Shown here: piece by piece, positions 19,312 through 49,792 of the stretch | Layout: each line of letters starts with the position of its first letter | Numbering within the stretch: the stretch's first letter is position 1 | Assembly (NCBI GenBank): GCA_023663725.1 | Contig: JAMPGX010000005.1 | Coordinates: forward strand, 77,403 to 141,402 | Reading direction: 5' to 3' | Length of the DNA: 64,000 nt | Source: a bacterium | Lineage (GTDB): Bacteria; Bacillota; Clostridia; Lachnospirales; Lachnospiraceae | Notes under the pieces: generated by a model | Database searches by the model: none | Seen by the model: only the letters and a program-made list of their open reading frames with translations | Told to the model about the DNA's origin: nothing | Position numbers and translations under genes: made by a program

Positions 19312-19604
19312 CGGTATTTACCTGCATATTATTTCTGTTTCTGATCGTGTGCGCGGTTGCGGCCAGCCTCTCGAAGAGCCTGCTGAACACGGTGCTGATC
19401 TTTATGAGCTATAGCCTTGTCATGTCCATCGTCTGGATTATATTGCAATCTCCTGATCTGGCCATCACGGAGGCGGCGGTGGGAGCCGGAGTAACCACGA
19501 TCCTGTTCGTGTTGACGCTGAAGAAGATTCACGCGATCATGAAGGAGGACGAGGGCGATGAGATGGAGGAGGAGCTGGAGTATCGAAGGAGGCGCAAATC
19601 ATGA
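19308..19604 (+). CDS. DUF4040/MbhD-like antiporter subunit
   Basis: A 98-residue, three-helix protein. The segment SPDLAITEAAVGAGVTTILF matches the DUF4040/MbhD domain, which in standard MrpA is part of the C-terminal extension of the large subunit. Here it is a separate gene, as in Mbh-type hydrogenases and related antiporters. It overlaps both neighbours by four bases. Confidence 0.88.
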   Translation: MTVFTCILFLFLIVCAVAASLSKSLLNTVLIFMSYSLVMSIVWIILQSPDLAITEAAVGAGVTTILFVLTLKKIHAIMKEDEGDEMEEELEYRRRRKS

Positions 19605-20572
19605 GCAAGAAGGTGCCTCAGGAACAATATGAAAAGACGATTTCCTACAGGCTGAAGACCTGGCTGGAGGGCAGCAGGGATCTGTATACAGGCAATCTGG
19701 AGATGAAACCGCAGAAATCTTGCGAGGAGAGTGAGGCTGTCAGCCGTCAGTATCGCGAGGAGGGCAGAAGAATGCGCGCCCGCGCGTATGACACGGAGCA
19801 CAACAGGGAGATGCTTTTCTTTAAAAAGATTTATCGCGTATTCAGTCTGCTGTTCTGTGTCTTCCTGGTGTCTATGCTGCTGATTGGCGTGGCCGATCTG
19901 CCTCCGTTTGGCGAGGCGGACAATCCGGTCAACAATGAGGTGTCGCAGAGATATATTGAGAAGGGATTGCAGGAGACAGGGGCTGTGAACCTTGTCACCG
20001 GCATGATACTGGATTACAGGGCCTTTGACACTCTGGGAGAGTCCCATGTGCTCTTTATCGCCACATGCACGGTGTTGATTCTGCTGCGCGCGGACCGCCG
20101 GCAGGATAAGAGCGTCGCAGAGGTGGCGGAGGCCAATGATCGGGACTACGAGCCGAAGAATGATGTGATATTGCAGACGGCGGCCAGACTCCTGGTGCCA
20201 TTTATCATTATCTTTGGCATCTACATTATACTATGCGGTCATCTGGGGCCCGGGGGTGGCTTCTCCGGCGGAGCGGTGATTGGCGCGGGGCTGATCTTGT
20301 ATGTCAGCGCCTTCGGATTTGCCAGGACGGAGAGGTTCTTTACCGCCAAAACCTACAGGCGTATGAGCTTTGGCGCGCTGGCCTGTTATTGCCTGTCCAA
20401 GACCTATTCCTTCTACACGGGGGCCAATCATATCGAGAGTGTGATTCCGCTGGGTACTCCCGGGGCCATCCTGAGCAGCGGCTTGATTCTGCTGCTCAAT
20501 ATCTGCGTGGGTGTGGTGGTGGCGGGCACCATGTACACCTTCTACGCCATGTTTCGGAAGGGGGGCTATTAG
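19601..20572 (+). CDS. mnhB: MbhE-MnhB fusion antiporter subunit
   Basis: A 323-residue membrane protein joining two modules. Residues 1-70 are a charged cytoplasmic extension of no known family. Residues 75-165 resemble MbhE (the end of canonical MrpA), with VTGMILDYRAFDTLGESHV. Residues 190-320 are MnhB, with LGPGGGFSGGAVIGAGLIL near 226. In Mrp systems the MbhE part is normally fused to MrpA, so this is an alternative way of splitting the complex. It overlaps the previous gene by four bases; mnhC follows one base after. Confidence 0.9.
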   Translation: MSKKVPQEQYEKTISYRLKTWLEGSRDLYTGNLEMKPQKSCEESEAVSRQYREEGRRMRARAYDTEHNREMLFFKKIYRVFSLLFCVFLVSMLLIGVADLPPFGEADNPVNNEVSQRYIEKGLQETGAVNLVTGMILDYRAFDTLGESHVLFIATCTVLILLRADRRQDKSVAEVAEANDRDYEPKNDVILQTAARLLVPFIIIFGIYIILCGHLGPGGGFSGGAVIGAGLILYVSAFGFARTERFFTAKTYRRMSFGALACYCLSKTYSFYTGANHIESVIPLGTPGAILSSGLILLLNICVGVVVAGTMYTFYAMFRKGGY

Positions 20573-20573
20573 C

Positions 20574-20951
20574 ATGAATCTCGGCAATCTGATTCACAAT
20601 TATGGCGAGGCTGTGGCTATGATCCTCTTTGGCATTGGCTTTTCCAACCTGCTGCTGCAAAAGAACCTGATCAAGAAGATCATCGGCCTGAATATCATGG
20701 ATACGGCGACCTATCTGTTTCTGGCCTTAAAGGGATATATCGAGGGACGCAAAGCGCCGGTGGTGGTGGACGGCGTTCAGAGTATGGAGGCCTATGTGAA
20801 CCCGATTCCCAGTGGATTGGTACTCACGGGCATCGTGGTGTCCGTGTCGGTGACGGCGCTGATGCTCTCGCTGACGATTCGTCTGTACCGGCGATATCAC
20901 ACGCTCGATCTGGACGAGATCTCCACCCTGCTGAAAAAGGAGGAAAAGTGA
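20574..20951 (+). CDS. mnhC: Mrp antiporter subunit C (NuoK-like)
   Basis: A 125-residue, three-helix NuoK/MrpC-type subunit. Landmarks are GFSNLLLQKNLIKKIIGLNIM near residue 23 and NPIPSGLVLTGIVVSVSVTA near 76. The ATG at 20574 follows the previous stop by one base and is chosen over a longer frame inside mnhB. The stop overlaps the next start as TGATG. Confidence 0.93.
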   Translation: MNLGNLIHNYGEAVAMILFGIGFSNLLLQKNLIKKIIGLNIMDTATYLFLALKGYIEGRKAPVVVDGVQSMEAYVNPIPSGLVLTGIVVSVSVTALMLSLTIRLYRRYHTLDLDEISTLLKKEEK

Positions 20952-22456
20952 TGGACTTTATCCGTAATTTTCCTTTTTTCTCCATTGTTCTATCCCTCTT
21001 TTCCGGCCCTCTGTCCTCCATCCTGGGAACAAAATGGGCCAGAAGGGTGAATACCCTTGTCATTGTCCTGTGCGGGCTCATGTCGGGGGCAGTGCTCTGG
21101 TATGTGTGCCATACGGGGGAGGCCTTTGTCTATACAATGGGACATTTTCCCGCTCCCTGGGGCAATGAGATACGGGCGGGAATACTGGAGGCTCTGATGG
21201 CAGAAGTCTTCTGCGTCATCATGCTGCTGTGCATGATGGGAGGGATCCGCGAGAGGGAGATGGAGATACAGGAGTCCAAGCAGAATTTGTATTATATCAT
21301 GATTGATCTGCTGTTGTGCTCTCTGCTGGCGCTGATCTACACCAACGACCTGTTCACAGCCTATGTGTTTGTGGAGATCAACACGATTGCCGCCTGCGGT
21401 CTGATCATGATCAGACAGAACGGGCGCACCATCGAGGCGGCAACCCGCTATATGATTATGAGCCTGCTGGGTTCGGGCCTGTTGCTGCTGGGTCTGTGTT
21501 TCCTGTATGACCTGACCGGACATCTGCTGATGAACAATATTCAGGCTGCCGTTCACGCTCTGGTGGCAAGCGGACAGTATCAGACGCCGCTGCTGGTGTC
21601 AATCTGCCTGATGTGTGTGGGCCTGGCGATCAAGAGCGCGCTGTTTCCCTTTCACACCTGGCTGCCGGACGCCTACGGATACTCCACCGTGTCCTCCGCG
21701 GCGATATTGTCCTCTCTGGTGTCCAAGGGCTATATCTTTCTGCTGGTCAAAATATTCTACCGCGTGATCGGTTTTGATGTGTTCAGCGGCAGCAAGGTGA
21801 TCCATGTGCTGTTTGTATTTGGCATAGCGGGAATGATCATGGGCTCTGTCGACGCGATAAGGGAAAGCGACATCCGCCGCATGATCGCCTACTCCTCTGT
21901 GGCTCAGATCGGCTATATTTATATGGGCTTTGGCCTGGGCACGATGGCTGGAGTGATCGCCAGCATCTATCATGTGATCTGCCATGCGGCAACCAAGTCC
22001 CTGTTGTTTGTGGCGGCCTCCGGCATCACGGATGTGTCCAACGGCAGCAGCAACTTCATGGATCTGGACGGCGCCGGCTATCGGAATAAGCTGGCGGGAG
22101 TCGCGTTTACCGTCGGATCGCTGTCAATGGTGGGTGTGCCCATGTTTGCGGGCTTTATCTCCAAGCTGTTCTTCTCCCAGGCGGCGGTGGGACACAATGT
22201 GAAGATGCTGCCGACGCTGATTGCGCTGGCGATCAGTACAGTTCTGAACGCCGTGTATTTTATGAAGACAGTGATCCGCATTTATTCCTCCAGACGGGGA
22301 AAAGAGCGGCCGGAGGGCTATGAGGATATCACGGTGAGACAGCAGCCGGTGAAGGCGGTGGCGATGATCCTGTTCATCCTGCTCAATATTGTGCTGGGGT
22401 TGAACTCAGAACCGATCGTAAAATTGATTGAACAGGGATTGGGGATGTTCTCCTGA
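20951..22456 (+). CDS. Large antiporter-like subunit 1 (MrpD/NuoN family)
   Basis: A 501-residue proton-conducting membrane subunit with about 14 hydrophobic helices. The charged channel residues of the family are kept: a Glu in the helix YVFVEINTIAACG (TM5-like), a Lys in GLAIKSALFPFHTWLPDAYG (TM7-like), and a Lys in AGFISKLFF (TM12-like). ATG at 20951 shares one base with the mnhC stop; GGAGG is seven bases upstream. It is the first of four such subunits in a row. Confidence 0.92.
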   Translation: MDFIRNFPFFSIVLSLFSGPLSSILGTKWARRVNTLVIVLCGLMSGAVLWYVCHTGEAFVYTMGHFPAPWGNEIRAGILEALMAEVFCVIMLLCMMGGIREREMEIQESKQNLYYIMIDLLLCSLLALIYTNDLFTAYVFVEINTIAACGLIMIRQNGRTIEAATRYMIMSLLGSGLLLLGLCFLYDLTGHLLMNNIQAAVHALVASGQYQTPLLVSICLMCVGLAIKSALFPFHTWLPDAYGYSTVSSAAILSSLVSKGYIFLLVKIFYRVIGFDVFSGSKVIHVLFVFGIAGMIMGSVDAIRESDIRRMIAYSSVAQIGYIYMGFGLGTMAGVIASIYHVICHAATKSLLFVAASGITDVSNGSSNFMDLDGAGYRNKLAGVAFTVGSLSMVGVPMFAGFISKLFFSQAAVGHNVKMLPTLIALAISTVLNAVYFMKTVIRIYSSRRGKERPEGYEDITVRQQPVKAVAMILFILLNIVLGLNSEPIVKLIEQGLGMFS

Positions 22457-22502
22457 ATATACGTGACAATATGCTGCAAACAGCAGCAGCGGAAAGGAAG
22501 CT

Positions 22503-24011
22503 ATGAGCGATCTGTGGATATTGAGCCCTGCCCTGACAGCGCTGGGCATTGGAGCCATCCTGGTGATATGGTCATTCGTAAAATATGAGATGCCGGCCGA
22601 GGAGAGAGATGCAGAAAAAAGGCCTCTGATGTACGTTCTGTACATCGGAGGGCTGTTGGTGTCGGCAAGCCTGGCAATGTGCGCTGTCTGGAGCGGTGAC
22701 AGGAGCGTCATATTATTTCATCTGATGAGGGATGTCCCCATCTTTTTTCAGATCGACTCCGTGGGCAGATGGTTTGTAACCCTGGTCACGGCGGTATGGG
22801 TTCTGGCAGGCATATACAGTGTGGCCTACATGCGGCGTGAGGGTGGAGAAAAAAGGTTCTTTGGGCTGTACCTGCTGGTTTATGGGGTACTGGTGTGTCT
22901 TGATTTTGCAGGTAATCTGGTGACCATGTACCTGTTTTACGAGCTGGTGACAATAGCGTCATTCCCACTTGTGATGCACAATGGCACCCGTGAGGCGATC
23001 ATGGCGGCGCTGAAATATCTGTTCTATTCTCTGTGCGGCGCCTACATGGGACTGTTTGGCATCTATTTTCTATACCGATACTGCGGCGGCGCGGCCTTCG
23101 CGCCAGGCGGAATTCTGAGCTCGCAGCTGACAGGCGCACAGGGAGGAATACTGCCGGTGGCGATATTCCTGATGCTGGTGGGCTTCGGAGCCAAGGCGGG
23201 AATGTTCCCCCTGCACGCATGGCTGCCCGCCGCCCATCCCGTGGCGCCCAGCCCCGCGTCCGCAGTGCTCTCCGGCGTCATCGTGAAATCCGGCGTCCTG
23301 GCCATCATACGTGTAGTCTACTATGTTGTGGGACCTGATTACCTGAGAGGCACCTGGGTACAATACGCATGGATGGCCCTGACTCTGGCCACAGTGTTCA
23401 TGGGCTCTCTGCTGGCCTATCGCGAGCCGGTGCTGAAAAAACGCCTGGCCTACTCCACCGTGAGCCAGCTCTCCTATATCCTGTTCGGCCTGGCGAGCCT
23501 CTCCCCCACGGCCTTTACCGGAGCACTGCTGCACGTCGCCTTCCACGGCCTGGTCAAGAGCGGCCTGTTCCTGACCGCGGGAGTCTTTCTCTCCTGCTGC
23601 GGCAAAAGCCGCGTGGACGAGCTCACCGGCATAGGGCGCAGAATGCCCGCGACGCTGTGGGGATATACCCTGCTCGCCCTGTCGCTGATCGGGATTCCCC
23701 CCGCCTGCGGCTTTGTGAGCAAATGGTATCTGGCGCAGGGAGCGCTGGAGGCGAACATCGGCGCCTGGGCCTATACCGGCATCGCAATCCTGCTCCTCAG
23801 CGCCCTGCTCACTGCCGGCTACCTGCTCCCCATCACCATGAAAGGCTTCTTCCCCGGAGACTCCACCCCGCCCGACGAAGCCCGCACCGAACCGCCCCTA
23901 GCCATGCGTATCCCCCTGCTCCTCCTGGCCGCCCTGTCCCTGCTCCTGGGCCTCCTGCCAGTCCCCCTGACAGAGTACGCCCAAAGCATAGCCGCCGCAG
24001 TACTGCGCTAG
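22503..24011 (+). CDS. Large antiporter-like subunit 2
   Basis: A 502-residue homologue of MrpA/MrpD/NuoL-M-N. The key residues are again present: Glu in YLFYELVTIASFP, Lys in GFGAKAGMFPLHAWLP, and Lys in CGFVSKWYLAQG. The last 400 bases are strikingly C-rich in third positions compared with neighbouring genes. AAAGGAAG precedes the ATG. A 312-base gap holding a palindromic element separates it from the next subunit, so downstream genes may be expressed differently. Confidence 0.91.
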   Translation: MSDLWILSPALTALGIGAILVIWSFVKYEMPAEERDAEKRPLMYVLYIGGLLVSASLAMCAVWSGDRSVILFHLMRDVPIFFQIDSVGRWFVTLVTAVWVLAGIYSVAYMRREGGEKRFFGLYLLVYGVLVCLDFAGNLVTMYLFYELVTIASFPLVMHNGTREAIMAALKYLFYSLCGAYMGLFGIYFLYRYCGGAAFAPGGILSSQLTGAQGGILPVAIFLMLVGFGAKAGMFPLHAWLPAAHPVAPSPASAVLSGVIVKSGVLAIIRVVYYVVGPDYLRGTWVQYAWMALTLATVFMGSLLAYREPVLKKRLAYSTVSQLSYILFGLASLSPTAFTGALLHVAFHGLVKSGLFLTAGVFLSCCGKSRVDELTGIGRRMPATLWGYTLLALSLIGIPPACGFVSKWYLAQGALEANIGAWAYTGIAILLLSALLTAGYLLPITMKGFFPGDSTPPDEARTEPPLAMRIPLLLLAALSLLLGLLPVPLTEYAQSIAAAVLR

Positions 24012-24108
24012 GGTATTTTACCACCTGCAGTAGTTGCCCACTATTGTATGAGATATCCTGTTTTAATTAATGAATATTTTTAATTCATGAACAATAGATG
24101 TTTGGATG

Positions 24109-24283
24109 TTTGCCAGTACCGAATTGTGTAGCTTATATATTCCATAAGCAGGCTCTTGAAAAACGTCAGTACTTAGCGAGGTTTGCCGAATTTATTCGGC
24201 ACGAGCTTAGTACTGCTACGTTTTTCACGAAGCGAGAGCGTGCCTGTGTTGGAATATATAAGCTGCACAATGACCCTGGCAAA
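24109..24283. repeat. Palindromic element, copy 1
   Basis: The gap between antiporter subunits 2 and 3 contains a roughly 175-bp imperfect palindrome. Its 21-bp inner arms (TTGTGTAGCTTATATATTCC and the matching TGGAATATATAAGCTGCACA) pair at 20 of 21 positions. Inside lie the blocks CATAAGCAGGCTCTT and GAAGCGAGAGCGTGCCTGTG, then a distal hairpin with AAAAACGTCAGTAC opposite GTACTGCTACGTTTTT and a TGCCGAAT/ATTCGGCA tip. The outer ends are TTTGCCAG and CTGGCAAA. The same element, inverted, is at 29760-29921. It has no coding capacity. It could be a nonautonomous mobile repeat or a structured RNA. Confidence 0.75.
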
Positions 24284-24323
24284 GCAACTAATCTTTACCA
24301 ATCGACAATGAAGGAGAAATAAC

Positions 24324-25805
24324 ATGCACATAGCAATCATGATCACGGTAGTGCTACTGCCGGTTCTGGGCGGCATCCTGATCCCGATGCTCCCCTTCCG
24401 CAACAGAAGAGAGATGCTCTGGTATATCGAGGCACTGGTGCTGATTAACTCCCTGCTGGTCATAACCATGCTGTTCTTCCAGCCGCAGGATGCCTTTGTG
24501 CTGTTCCGCTTTACCGGCGACCTGCGAGTCAGCTTCCATATGGACGGCATGGGCCGGATATTCGCGGGCCTGGTGGCCGTGCTGTGGCCCCTGGCCGTTC
24601 TGTACTCCTTCGAATATACGGAAAACGACCCCAAGGAGAAAAGCTTTTACCTGTTCTATGTGATCACCTATGGAGTTACATTGGGCGTCGCCATGGCGGA
24701 CAATATTCTGACCATGTACTTCTTCTTTGAGATGATGAGCCTGGTGACCCTGCCGCTGATCCTGCACACCCGCACCCGTGAGGCGGTGCTGGCCAGCCGC
24801 AGTTACCTCTACTATATGATCGGCGGCGCCGCGTTCGCCTTTATCGGCATGATCTTTATTCTCTCTTATGGAAGCTCCTCCGCCTTCGTGTCGGGGGGAG
24901 TGCTGGATCTGGAGAAAATAGGGGATAAGATCAATATGATGCTCTTTGTGTATGTGCTGTGCTTTCTGGGCTTTGGCGTCAAGACGGCCATCTGGCCATT
25001 TTCCGGATGGCTGCCGAGGGCGGGCGTGGCTCCCACGCCGGTTACGGCCCTGCTTCACGCGGTGGCGGTGGTCAATACCGGCGCTTTCGCCACGATGCGC
25101 ATCACCTATTACAGCTTTGGCACCGGATTGCTGAGGGGCACATGGGCGCAGGGCGTCGTGATGCTGCTGGTGATCTTCACTATCGTGTACGGCTGTAGTC
25201 GAGCGCTGAAGGAGACTCATCTGAAGAGACGCCTGGCCTGGTCCACCGTCAGCAATATGTCCTATATCCTGTTTGGCGTGACGCTGATGACTCCGCTGGG
25301 GCTGGCGGCAGCGCTGTGCCATATGCTGTTTCATTCTTTTATGAAGATATGTTCCTTTTTCTGCGCGGGAGCCGTGATACAGAGGACGAACCGCACCTAT
25401 GTCCATGAGCTGGACGGCCTGGGCAGAAAGATGCCCAGGGTGTTTGCGATCTTCACTGTCAGCGGTATGGCGCTGATGGGAGTGCCGGGGTTGGCCGGAT
25501 TCATCAGCAAATGGCAGCTGGCCCAGGCTGCGGCAGCGGACGACAATCCCCTGGCCTGGGTGGGCGTGGGCGCGCTATTGGTGTCGGCGCTGCTCACAGC
25601 CATCTATATGCTGACGATCTCGGTGAGAGCCTTTTTCCCAGGGAGGGACTTCGATTACCACACCGTCTCTGATGTGAGGGAGCCGGGCTGGAAGATGCTT
25701 GTGCCGCTGCTGATATTCGTGGTGGTGATTCTGGTCTTCGGGTTGCACTCTCAGCCCTTTACCGAGGCGATAGGAGAGGTGGCGGCTGCGATGCCGACGC
25801 AGTAG
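24324..25805 (+). CDS. Large antiporter-like subunit 3
   Basis: A 493-residue homologue of the two preceding subunits. Conserved charges: Glu in YFFFEMMSLVTLP, Lys in GFGVKTAIWPFSGWLPRAG, Lys in AGFISKWQLAQA. GGAG lies before the ATG. About 14 helices are expected. It is clearly diverged from subunits 1 and 2, so the set arose by old duplication rather than recent copying. An 17-base gap leads to subunit 4. Confidence 0.91.
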   Translation: MHIAIMITVVLLPVLGGILIPMLPFRNRREMLWYIEALVLINSLLVITMLFFQPQDAFVLFRFTGDLRVSFHMDGMGRIFAGLVAVLWPLAVLYSFEYTENDPKEKSFYLFYVITYGVTLGVAMADNILTMYFFFEMMSLVTLPLILHTRTREAVLASRSYLYYMIGGAAFAFIGMIFILSYGSSSAFVSGGVLDLEKIGDKINMMLFVYVLCFLGFGVKTAIWPFSGWLPRAGVAPTPVTALLHAVAVVNTGAFATMRITYYSFGTGLLRGTWAQGVVMLLVIFTIVYGCSRALKETHLKRRLAWSTVSNMSYILFGVTLMTPLGLAAALCHMLFHSFMKICSFFCAGAVIQRTNRTYVHELDGLGRKMPRVFAIFTVSGMALMGVPGLAGFISKWQLAQAAAADDNPLAWVGVGALLVSALLTAIYMLTISVRAFFPGRDFDYHTVSDVREPGWKMLVPLLIFVVVILVFGLHSQPFTEAIGEVAAAMPTQ

Positions 25806-25822
25806 AGAGGAGGGAAAGCGAT

Positions 25823-27886
25823 ATGTTGTGGCCAAATATCAGCCTGCCTGTTTTGGTGTTTATGCCCTTTGTTGTGGGAATTCTGGCATATGCGCTGAGG
25901 AAAAAGAATATCGCCGCAGTCTGCGGGACGGTCGCGGAGCTTCTGACAGTGCTCGCGCTGGCGGGAATCCTCTATTGGCAGTCCCGCGTCATGCCGCTGC
26001 ATCTGTATGAGACATCGGAGGCATATCTGGAGTGCGCTCTGCCTGCGGTCTGCGGCTTTGGCCTGCACTTTCGCCTTGACGGTCTGCGGCTGGTGCTGAC
26101 GCTGACCGCGGCGTTCATGTGGACTATGGCGGCGTTAGTTTCCGGGCAGTATTTTGCCGGACACAGGCATACGGGACGTTTCTACCTGTTTCTGATGTGG
26201 ACCCAGGGAGCCACGATGGGAGTCTTTCTGTCCGCGGACCTGATGACCACCTTTGTTTTCTTTGAAATCATGTCCTTCACCTCCTATGTGTGGGTAGCGC
26301 AGGAGGAGAACGCTCCCTCTCTGCGGGCGGCGCAGACCTATCTGGCGGTCGCGGTCATCGGCGGAATGGTGATGCTGATGGGCATCTTTCTGCTGTATCA
26401 TGAGCTGGGCACACTGGAGATCGCCGGACTTGCGACGGCCGCCCAGAGCCGTGAGGACAAAAGGCTCCTCTACGCGGCGGGAGGGTGTATGCTGGTTGGC
26501 TTTGGCGCCAAGGCGGGAGCTTTTCCCCTGCATATCTGGCTGCCCAAGGCTCATCCGGTGGCTCCGGCGCCTGCCTCGGCTCTGCTGTCCGGCATTCTGA
26601 CCAAGACGGGCATCTTTGGGATATTGATTCTGAGCAGTCAGCTCTTTGCGCGTGATGGCGTCTTTGGAATGCTGATCCTGACGTTGGCGGTCATCACCAT
26701 GCTGCTGGGAGCTGTGCTGGCGGTATTTTCCATTGACCTGAAGCGTACTCTGGCCTGCTCCTCCGTGTCCCAGATCGGCTTCATCCTGGTGGGAATCGGT
26801 ATGCAGAATCTGCTGGGGGAGGAAAATGCGCTGGCGGTGCACGGGACGTTGCTGCACATGGTGAACCACTCCCTGATCAAGTTGGCGCTGTTTCTGGCGG
26901 CGGGAGTCATATACCTCAACACCCACGCGTTGGATCTGAACACGATTCGGGGATATGGGCGCAGAAAACCGTTGCTTGGGGGAATATTCCTCACAGGGGC
27001 GCTGGCAGTCGGCGGCGTTCCCCTGTTTGCGGGCTACGTCAGCAAGACGCTGCTCCATGAGAGTATTGTGGAATACCCAGGCGGCTGGCTGTTTACGCTG
27101 GTGGAATGGATTTTCCTGCTGTCAGGGGGATTGACGGTGGCCTATATGACGAAGCTCTTTGTGGCAATCTTCGTGAAAAAAAATGAGGACGAGACCAGGC
27201 AGGCGGCCTATGACGAGAACAAGCCCTACATGAATCGCACGACGGGTTTTGCCCTGACGCTCAGCGCCGCAGTGCTGCTGCTCTGGGGACTGACACCGCG
27301 TCTGACCATGGACCGCGTTGCCGGACTGGGACGGAGCTTCATGGGCCTTAGTCATGCAGGTGAAGCGGTGGCCTATTACAGCTGGGGCAATCTGGCCGGA
27401 GCGATGGTCTCCCTCGGCATCGGAGCCGCGGTGTACCTGGTGTTCCTCAGGCGTCCCGCGTCCGCGCGCTATGTGAATCGCTGGCCCGCCTGGATGGATC
27501 TGGAGGAACTGGTCTACCGCCCCCTGATATTCTCTCTGCTGCCTCTGATATGCGGCATCGTATGCCGTGTCATGGACAGCGCTGTGGACCTGCTGGTAGT
27601 GCTGCTGCGTAAGACCTTGTATCGGGACAGCCCGCTTCCCCGCGAGCTGCCGGAGGGCAATGTGTTCACCGCCGCCGCAGGCCATGTGCTGAACGGCGTC
27701 CAGTGGCTGGGCAACCACCTCTGGAAACGCAGATTCCGCACCCATCGGGAGTATGTGCATCTGCTGGCCATGAAACGTCTGCAGTTCAAGGAGGAGGGCT
27801 TTATCATTCGCCGCAGCCTGTCCTTCGGCCTGTTGCTGTTCTGCCTGGGGCTGGGTCTGACACTGGTATACATCCTGTTGATGTAG
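25823..27886 (+). CDS. Large antiporter-like subunit 4 (NuoL/MrpA-like, long form)
   Basis: The longest of the four (687 residues), resembling NuoL/MrpA/HyfB-type proteins. The core keeps Glu in VFFEIMSFTSYVW, Lys in GFGAKAGAFPLHIWLPKAHP, and Lys in AGYVSKTLLHES. A C-terminal extension of about 180 residues ends in one more hydrophobic helix (FGLLLFCLGLGLTLVYILLM), like the lateral-helix tails of NuoL-type subunits, but without the MbhD/MbhE domains of MrpA, which are encoded separately here. AGGAGGG precedes the ATG. It closes the cluster. Confidence 0.91.
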   Translation: MLWPNISLPVLVFMPFVVGILAYALRKKNIAAVCGTVAELLTVLALAGILYWQSRVMPLHLYETSEAYLECALPAVCGFGLHFRLDGLRLVLTLTAAFMWTMAALVSGQYFAGHRHTGRFYLFLMWTQGATMGVFLSADLMTTFVFFEIMSFTSYVWVAQEENAPSLRAAQTYLAVAVIGGMVMLMGIFLLYHELGTLEIAGLATAAQSREDKRLLYAAGGCMLVGFGAKAGAFPLHIWLPKAHPVAPAPASALLSGILTKTGIFGILILSSQLFARDGVFGMLILTLAVITMLLGAVLAVFSIDLKRTLACSSVSQIGFILVGIGMQNLLGEENALAVHGTLLHMVNHSLIKLALFLAAGVIYLNTHALDLNTIRGYGRRKPLLGGIFLTGALAVGGVPLFAGYVSKTLLHESIVEYPGGWLFTLVEWIFLLSGGLTVAYMTKLFVAIFVKKNEDETRQAAYDENKPYMNRTTGFALTLSAAVLLLWGLTPRLTMDRVAGLGRSFMGLSHAGEAVAYYSWGNLAGAMVSLGIGAAVYLVFLRRPASARYVNRWPAWMDLEELVYRPLIFSLLPLICGIVCRVMDSAVDLLVVLLRKTLYRDSPLPRELPEGNVFTAAAGHVLNGVQWLGNHLWKRRFRTHREYVHLLAMKRLQFKEEGFIIRRSLSFGLLLFCLGLGLTLVYILLM

Positions 27887-29698: not shown

Positions 29699-29759
29699 GC
29701 AATGCACGTAATTCAAGTAATGTAGAAATAGAGTAGGCATTTACTAAACCTGATTACTA

Positions 29760-29921
29760 TGCTAGTGTCATTGTGTACATTGTATATTCCAACACAGGCA
29801 CGCTCTCGCTTCGTTCTCACTGTAGCGGTACATAAGATGCCAAAGAACGGCATCTAAGTACCGACAGTTCGAAAGAGCCTGCTTATGGAATATACAATAT
29901 ACACAATTCGGTACTGGCAAA
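29760..29921. repeat. Palindromic element, copy 2, inverted relative to copy 1
   Basis: About 162 bases in the gap after pepF. Reverse-complemented, it aligns with copy 1: TTTGCCAGTACCGAATTGTG, CCATAAGCAGGCTCTT and GAAGCGAGAGCGTGCCTG are the same. Yet the arms (TTGTGTACATTGTATATTCC with its partner) and the distal hairpin (CGGTACTTAGATGCC with GGCATCTTATGTACCG) differ in sequence while still pairing. Such paired changes mean the fold, not the sequence, is kept in the stems. No ORF is present. It separates pepF from the gene at 29981. Confidence 0.75.
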
Positions 29922-29980
29922 GGATAGTTTTATTATTGTCTAAGTAGTATTACAAGGATATCAAGGAGAGGAACAGGGAA

Positions 29981-49555: not shown

Positions 49556-49637
49556 GGATGGATTCCCGAGTGGCCAAAGGGGACAGACTGTAAATCTGCT
49601 GCAAATTGCTTCGGTGGTTCGAATCCACCTCCATCCA
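49556..49637 (+). tRNA. tRNA-Tyr (GTA)
   Basis: Acceptor arms GGATGGA and TCCATCC pair; the anticodon loop CTGTAAA gives GTA; a long variable arm and GGTTCGAATCC T-arm follow. The discriminator is A and CCA is not encoded. Confidence 0.95.
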
Positions 49638-49708: not shown

Positions 49709-49792
49709 GCTGGTGTGGCGGAATAGGCAGACGCAAGGGACTTAAAATCCCTCGGTGGCAACACCGTGCCGGTTCAAGTCCGGCCACCAGCA
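49709..49792 (+). tRNA. tRNA-Leu (TAA)
   Basis: Acceptor arms GCTGGTG and CACCAGC pair; the anticodon loop CTTAAAA gives TAA. The variable arm CTCGGTGGCAACACCGTG forms the type II stem, and GGTTCAAGTCC the T-arm. Discriminator A, no encoded CCA. It is in the same transcript as tRNA-Tyr. Confidence 0.95.

Follow-up and report, generated by a model that had tools for sequence, protein, structure and literature searches.

The stretch analysed here, a window of 64,000 nucleotides from contig JAMPGX010000005.1 of the genome of a Lachnospiraceae gut bacterium (GCA_023663725.1), carries two copies of a palindromic element in inverted orientation (Table 1). Copy 1 lies between two genes of a run (19601-27886) that by eye resembles subunits of a cation/proton antiporter or of a complex I-like enzyme. 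An earlier note, made from the sequence alone, had described both copies, placing copy 2 at 29760-29921, and a covariance model built from 36 copies of the host genome (R1) recovers the two in the same inverted arrangement. As detailed below, the element disperses like a transposon and its core is under RNA-type constraint, which is strand-specific in the host genome. It is therefore very probably a mobile element whose core is constrained as an RNA would be. As RNA, the + strand of the element folds better than its complement.

Table 1. Parts of the two element copies in the window
Feature	Coordinates	Strand	Basis or remark
Copy 1, whole mobile unit, decayed terminal repeats	24095..24308	+	boundaries set by eye against the family alignment with flanks
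Copy 1, structured core	24109..24283	+	covariance model R1, 201.2 bits
Copy 1, outer stem P1, 5′ arm	24123..24144	+	pairs with 24250-24271
Copy 1, outer stem P1, 3′ arm	24250..24271	+	partner of 24123..24144
Copy 1, P2 hairpin with 2-nt bulge and CGAG (24177-24180) / CGAG (24202-24205)	24158..24226	+	
Copy 1, P3 mini-hairpin GC-GAGA-GC, GNRA tetraloop	24232..24239	+	
Copy 2, whole mobile unit	29734..29942	-	boundaries set by eye; ends are the terminal repeat with 2 and 3 mismatches, located with respect to the core as in other copies
Copy 2, structured core, short-apical subtype	29758..29921	-	R1, 176.3 bits
Copy 2, P3 mini-hairpin, GNRA tetraloop	29802..29809	-	sequence

The core consists of a long outer stem (P1), a hairpin with a 2-nt bulge (P2) and an apical part, and a mini-hairpin (P3) in which two pairs close a GNRA loop. 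The apical part of copy 1 contains a CGAG/CGAG motif, present in 33 of 52 sequences, whose facing strands would form tandem G.A pairs. In both window copies P1 is 22 bp long and made of 21 Watson-Crick pairs and one G.U pair, close to the 20 of 21 paired positions that the earlier note had counted. Between the copies, both sides differ at nine P1 pairs and one side at three. The folding energy of copy 1 (175 nt) is -89.3 kcal/mol, compared with -80.9 kcal/mol for the best of 300 random 175-nt stretches. That of copy 2 is -80.1 kcal/mol for the whole unit of 209 nt, so that folding energy alone does not single out this copy.

Covariance-model searches found further copies both in the host genome and in other Lachnospiraceae. 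While BLAST of the genome returned 52 matches (40 of 117 candidates scored), the R1 search returned 148 at E ≤0.01 (150 of 909 candidates scored), 40 of them being the reverse strand of another match. The host genome thus holds at least 108 copies, about 30 per Mb, and further ones may exist because only part of the candidates was scored; 101 of the 108 score ≥90 bits. Three alignments were used in the analyses that follow. Alignment A1 comprises 36 of the 41 full copies found first, after exclusion of five that were chimeric or insertion-bearing. Alignment A3, for the genus, comprises 45 of 63 relatives and 7 of the host's own copies, near-duplicates and copies with long inserts being excluded, and alignment A4 comprises 93 matches at E ≤1e-30, 92 of which are distinct. 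One copy (L008 1495-1669, - strand) is chimeric: the 5′ and 3′ arms of its P2 belong to different subtypes and so are partly mismatched, which suggests recombination between copies.

Aligned with their flanks, the copies reach beyond the coordinates given in the earlier note, and those with well-kept ends terminate in inverted repeats resembling TAGRCRWTTGCRAAAC. At ≤1 mismatch this sequence occurs 115 times in the genome, a count that includes the ends of every element sharing them, versus twice for the reversed control. An end at ≤1 mismatch was found at the 5′ side of 58 and the 3′ side of 73 of the 108 copies, versus 0.8% of 1834 control stretches. At ≤3 mismatches these values rise to 98 and 99 of 108, but 35% of the control stretches match too. 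We scored target-site duplications as flanking direct repeats of 8-14 bp, allowing one mismatch and small shifts, in the 90 copies with both ends located at 3 mismatches. Such a duplication flanks 29 of the 90, compared with 0.88 on average, and never more than 4, in 200 shuffles. The 42 copies with ends at ≤1 mismatch are 151-245 bp long (median 220), and 21 of them have a duplication, most commonly of 11 bp. Both window copies have decayed ends, neither has a recognisable duplication, and the end pattern at ≤3 mismatches, found six times in the window versus 4.19 expected, is not significant by itself.

A candidate transposase gene adjoins the same end sequence. At the start of contig C44 (locus L066), a gene on the minus strand starting at base 1524 encodes a 485-aa transposase, and the 16-bp end TAGGCGTTTGCGAAAC lies 125 bp beyond its start. 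A second end, TAGGTAATTGCGAAAC, is found close to where contig C33 (locus L055) begins; this contig has 55 bases in common with C44. The gene and one end are thus in L066 and the other end in L055, and the ends are the same as those of the element. A DUF772 domain (4.4e-11) is recognised in the protein. Of the NCBIfam models IS1182 fits it best, but with 78 bits versus a curated cut-off of 270 (NF033551) the protein can be called IS1182-like only. Considering the inverted-repeat ends, the target duplications, and the transposase gene adjoining the same end, we regard the elements as non-autonomous transposons. They display every feature of miniature inverted-repeat transposable elements (MITEs) for which we tested.

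ISLre2 was also considered as the mobiliser, and rejected. No PF06782 match was found in the host genome, a search that alone is not proof of absence. PF06782 matches are present in 12 of 61 genomes of the genus, and the 13 loci concerned yield only scattered hits to the end pattern, without a convincing pair of such ends around the gene. Another candidate autonomous insertion sequence (IS), at a contig end (L054), looks instead like a short repeat broken up by a different sequence that is itself multi-copy. This short repeat, of ∼143 bp and with the same terminal repeats, is seen at L059 681-823, at L060 835-977, and at L061 from 532 onwards, sometimes beside the structured element. The multi-copy sequence, GTGAAAAAAGTCCCC..., is present at L054 622-676, at the ends of contigs C5, C15, C17, C20, and C22, near the start of C31, and inside C45; it is probably another IS.

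The fold of the core is supported by paired sequence change. In the 36 copies of the host genome, 23 of 53 pairs have changed on both sides and 98.9% of the cells are paired, as compared with 91.5% after shuffling and 24-50% when the pairing is slid. When the 92 distinct copies are fitted to R1, both-sided change is seen at 30 of 53 pairs and 98.6% of the cells are paired (shuffled 91.5%, slid 24-53%), in agreement with the earlier note, which had read the paired change in the stems as selection on a folded form. Across the genus, 52 sequences aligned by MAFFT show both-sided change at 33 of 37 pairs, with 89.0% of the cells paired (shuffled 72.7%, slid 34-45%). A covariance model of the core (R2) provided a fourth set of 47 hits at 38 loci, 33 of these loci being from other genera, four from the host's genus, and one from another class. 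Here, 34 of 37 pairs have changed on both sides and 94.0% of the cells are paired (shuffled 67.7%, slid 33-44%), with the qualification that alignments fitted to R1 or R2 are biased towards the modelled structure. None of 500 shuffles reached any of five covariation measures in the 92-copy set, and none was reached in the genus and R2-fitted sets either. The GNRA loop of P3 is present in 98 of the 101 host copies scoring ≥90 bits and in 63 of 83 distinct hits from relatives, the 20 hits lacking it being reverse-strand self matches (16), cut by the end of the stretch (three), or broken (one). A strict GNRA pattern occurs in 43 of the 47 R2-fitted hits, and two more have the loop by eye.

Because a DNA palindrome free of strand-specific constraint should contain G.T and A.C equally often, the balance of G.U and A.C can be read as a measure of strand-specific constraint. 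The 92 host copies contain 302 G.U versus 34 A.C cells, and in the 36-copy set G.U is favoured in 16 columns and A.C in three; the R2-fitted set contains 44 G.U versus 22 A.C. The + strand folds better in 83 of 101 host copies, in 53 of 63 relatives, and in 40 of 47 further hits. We also compared 18 pairs of mutually closest copies, which differ at 1-4 base pairs. One-sided changes keep pairing in 27 cases and break it in 10, or 27 versus 6 when only transitions are counted (one change between unpaired states excluded), where by our reasoning the absence of constraint would give about 1 to 1. The same pairs of copies have 47 changes in 106 paired columns versus 85 in 62 unpaired columns.

The core of the element is widespread in Lachnospiraceae. 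BLAST matches were found in 15 of 61 genomes, all of the host's genus, and in none of 24 genomes of other families. Searches with R2, at E ≤1e-4 and with stricter filters, had hits in 127 of the 299 genomes sampled from the family, corresponding to 126 of 298 genera, in 69 of 392 genomes of the order, all within the family, and in five of 398 genomes of the phylum. One of these five (G1044) belongs to another class and has the same motifs by eye. An exact pattern was present at 13 loci of Lachnospiraceae metagenome assemblies, ten of which came from roe deer, and viral contigs gave no exact match to one shorter pattern.

Across many genera of the family, one and the same core is combined with different outer ends. 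By eye, a genome of another genus (G271) has ends as in the host genome, one copy with a 12-bp duplication, and G628 has ten copies with identical cores, most of which end in TACTTTATTGTTT. The outer ends are of the GGGTTTGC type in G027 and, in part, of the GTTTAGAAATGG type in G032, while in G169 the P1 arms extend outwards with no further end seen. The arms turn over faster than the core. Pairs of copies with arm identity <0.6 at core identity >0.9 number 20 of 55 in G169, 27 of 78 in G351, and four of eight in G149; there are none among 36 pairs in G134, 28 in G628, and 15 in G032. Within a copy, arm complementarity is ≥0.67 in all 62 copies examined, random 24-mers having a median of 0.29 and a 95th percentile of 0.62. 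An insertion may conceivably copy one flank into an inverted arm; in G149 and G169 the arms are imperfect and by eye partly grade into one another.

In the host genome, with genes called mechanically, 16 of the 108 copies overlap a reading frame >600 bp, and no such overlap was seen for the others. Host copies within 1.5 kb of each other are arranged minus-plus in 16 cases, plus-plus in six, minus-minus in two, and plus-minus in none; an example of a divergent pair is L008 1495-1669 (-) and 1946-2109 (+). All eight close pairs in G017, G022, and G027 are minus-plus, and in G027 (L136, L141) the members are by eye mostly of two distinct types. Nine loci of the R2-fitted set have two hits, seven of them minus-plus, one minus-minus (L234), and one plus-minus (L260). 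Two element copies at L003 enclose a pair of reading frames (500-1166) that resemble membrane proteins and may be a single interrupted gene; a degraded third copy follows.

The earlier note had offered two possible identities, a transposase-dependent repeat and a class of noncoding RNA, and the element has the marks of both. On the one hand it has transposon-like ends, target duplications, and a transposase gene adjoining the same end sequence; on the other, its core is of RNA type, with GNRA loops, covarying pairs, and, in the host genome, G.U far in excess of A.C. Its copies are many, their pairing is kept, and the element goes beyond the simple inverted repeats of an IS end. Our preferred interpretation, held tentatively and at slightly less than an even chance, is that these are non-autonomous, MITE-like transposons carrying a conserved structured RNA that serves the element. 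The IS1182-like transposase would move the element in trans, and the RNA would be read from the element's own + strand and work for the element. It may be bound by a putative protein partner and be needed for the element's spread or persistence. Judged from sequence, the role of the RNA for the element is a possibility that falls distinctly short of even. A wider proposal, on the unlikely side, is that of a large, hitherto unrecognised class of trans-acting structured RNA in Lachnospiraceae that would have spread on several transposon families, with a dedicated putative RNA-binding partner and often as divergent pairs of two non-identical RNAs.

Several observations weigh against the idea of transposons carrying an RNA of their own. 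The candidate autonomous IS is pieced together from two contig ends sharing the 55 bases mentioned above, and no single intact copy was seen. Among 20 neighbours from 20 loci, none is a transposase and none suggests a partner protein; the 18 with a Pfam match are diverse, two being aldo/keto reductases, one a sigma factor, and every other kind occurring once, and two have no match. In the 36-copy set, one of the five covariation measures was reached by nine of 500 shuffles. In alignment A3, from the genus, G.U barely exceeds A.C (60 versus 51), 13 of the A.C cells coming from one column and 10 from another that is ill-suited to short-apical rows. Moreover, the copies are related, hence the strand and pairing counts are not independent. 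Finally, the position of the copies is asymmetric. A mechanically called start codon follows the 3′ end of the model at a distance of 48-60 nt in 24 of 66 cases, versus seven of 54 for the 5′ end, and, over all copies, the downstream gene is co-directional with the element in 66 cases and opposed in 33. The positional asymmetry shifts a little weight to a different explanation, in which the hairpin would be co-transcribed with its neighbours and act in cis on mRNA, controlling processing, stability, or translation. Some copies do lie within operons by eye, between pgk and tpiA (L111) and between fabG and fabF (L112), and effects on mRNA have been reported for ERIC and NEMIS/Correia repeats (PMC2229807). 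Against this explanation, no significant preference is seen where orientation can be judged. Copies between co-directional genes are sense in 36 cases and antisense in 23 (P 0.12), or 19 and 14 when only single copies are considered, the 3′ end is the nearer one in 11 of 17 divergent gaps, and a hand count at 20 loci of other genera gave seven sense and 13 antisense. On this balance, we consider control in cis unlikely, though worth serious consideration.

Another alternative is a single-stranded DNA hairpin. Folded single-stranded DNA is recognised at IS200/IS605 ends, at attC sites, and in REP/RAYT systems, and a folded top strand of the element could similarly be recognised by a transposase or recombinase. 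The near-complete palindrome, the one-strand polarity, the conserved bulge, and the arms of G169 that extend outwards with no other end would all fit. However, the P3 loops obey the GNRA rule of RNA, including the purine at position 3, and in the host genome the ends and duplications resemble those of DDE transposition, which makes a DNA hairpin decidedly improbable. Template-switch repair could keep the arms of a DNA palindrome complementary without selection on the fold, and arms that turn over fast yet stay paired, as in G169, G351, and G149, are what it would leave. It does not predict the excess of G.U over A.C in the host genome, the GNRA loops, or the difference in folding energy between strands, and no arm-diverged pairs of copies are found in G134, G628, and G032; we hold it to be very improbable. 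An ordinary MITE with an internal hairpin that serves no purpose would account for the terminal repeats, the target duplications, and the candidate transposase, but hardly for a core that is found by eye on at least four kinds of ends and covaries across genera, and we give this explanation almost no credence.

Bacterial MITEs are often regarded as passive leftovers of IS, and here ordinary transposon ends are combined with a core that has the hallmarks of a functional RNA and recurs in 126 of the 298 genera sampled from a major gut family. Should the RNA act in mobility, DDE-type transposition would be tied to a structured RNA; should it act for the host, it would be an abundant regulator that is absent from Rfam 15. 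Both possibilities are testable, because copies abound and the structure is precisely modelled.

Searches of Rfam 15 assigned the element to no family at threshold. Only two tRNAs, which are neighbours (49556-49637 and 49709-49792), exceed the threshold in the window. Copy 1, searched at E ≤10, gave one sub-threshold microRNA model (E 0.037), and ten loci of relatives, searched at E ≤5, gave 12 hits, none above threshold. The lowest E value over an element is 8.4e-6, for a microRNA model at 39.4 of 245 bits, which is also sub-threshold. At L110, a truncated transfer-messenger RNA (tmRNA; 40.7 of 47 bits) adjoins an element. A literature search, with subscription papers mostly outside its scope, found no description of the element. 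Structured RNAs that ride on mobile elements, sometimes without the protein gene, include HEARO/omega RNA and the IS110 bridge RNA. Unlike these, the present element belongs to no Rfam family at threshold, and none of its 20 examined neighbours is partner-like.

The remaining comparisons are with dispersed repeats. ERIC/IRU and NEMIS/Correia are bacterial MITEs whose transcripts contain long stem-loops (PMC2229807). Like them, the element is ∼100-200 bp long, intergenic, and bounded by terminal repeats and target duplications (PMC2229807); unlike ERIC and NEMIS, it has a branched core with a GNRA loop, which covaries across genera and is found with several kinds of ends. Many dispersed palindromes are also characteristic of REP/BIME, and in BIMEs the orientations alternate (PMC2817692), whereas the units of the element are longer, branched, and flanked by target duplications. 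RUP of Streptococcus pneumoniae is a MITE of 107 bp with 108 copies, which inserts at TA and is linked to IS630-Spn1, and for which no further signature of structure or function is reported (PMC2229807). The element resembles RUP in its similar copy number and in that both share terminal sequences with an IS present in their own genome (PMC2229807), and it differs in its duplications, mostly 9-14 bp, and in its candidate transposase, which is IS1182-like. ERIC, NEMIS, and RUP are thus the nearest known kind.
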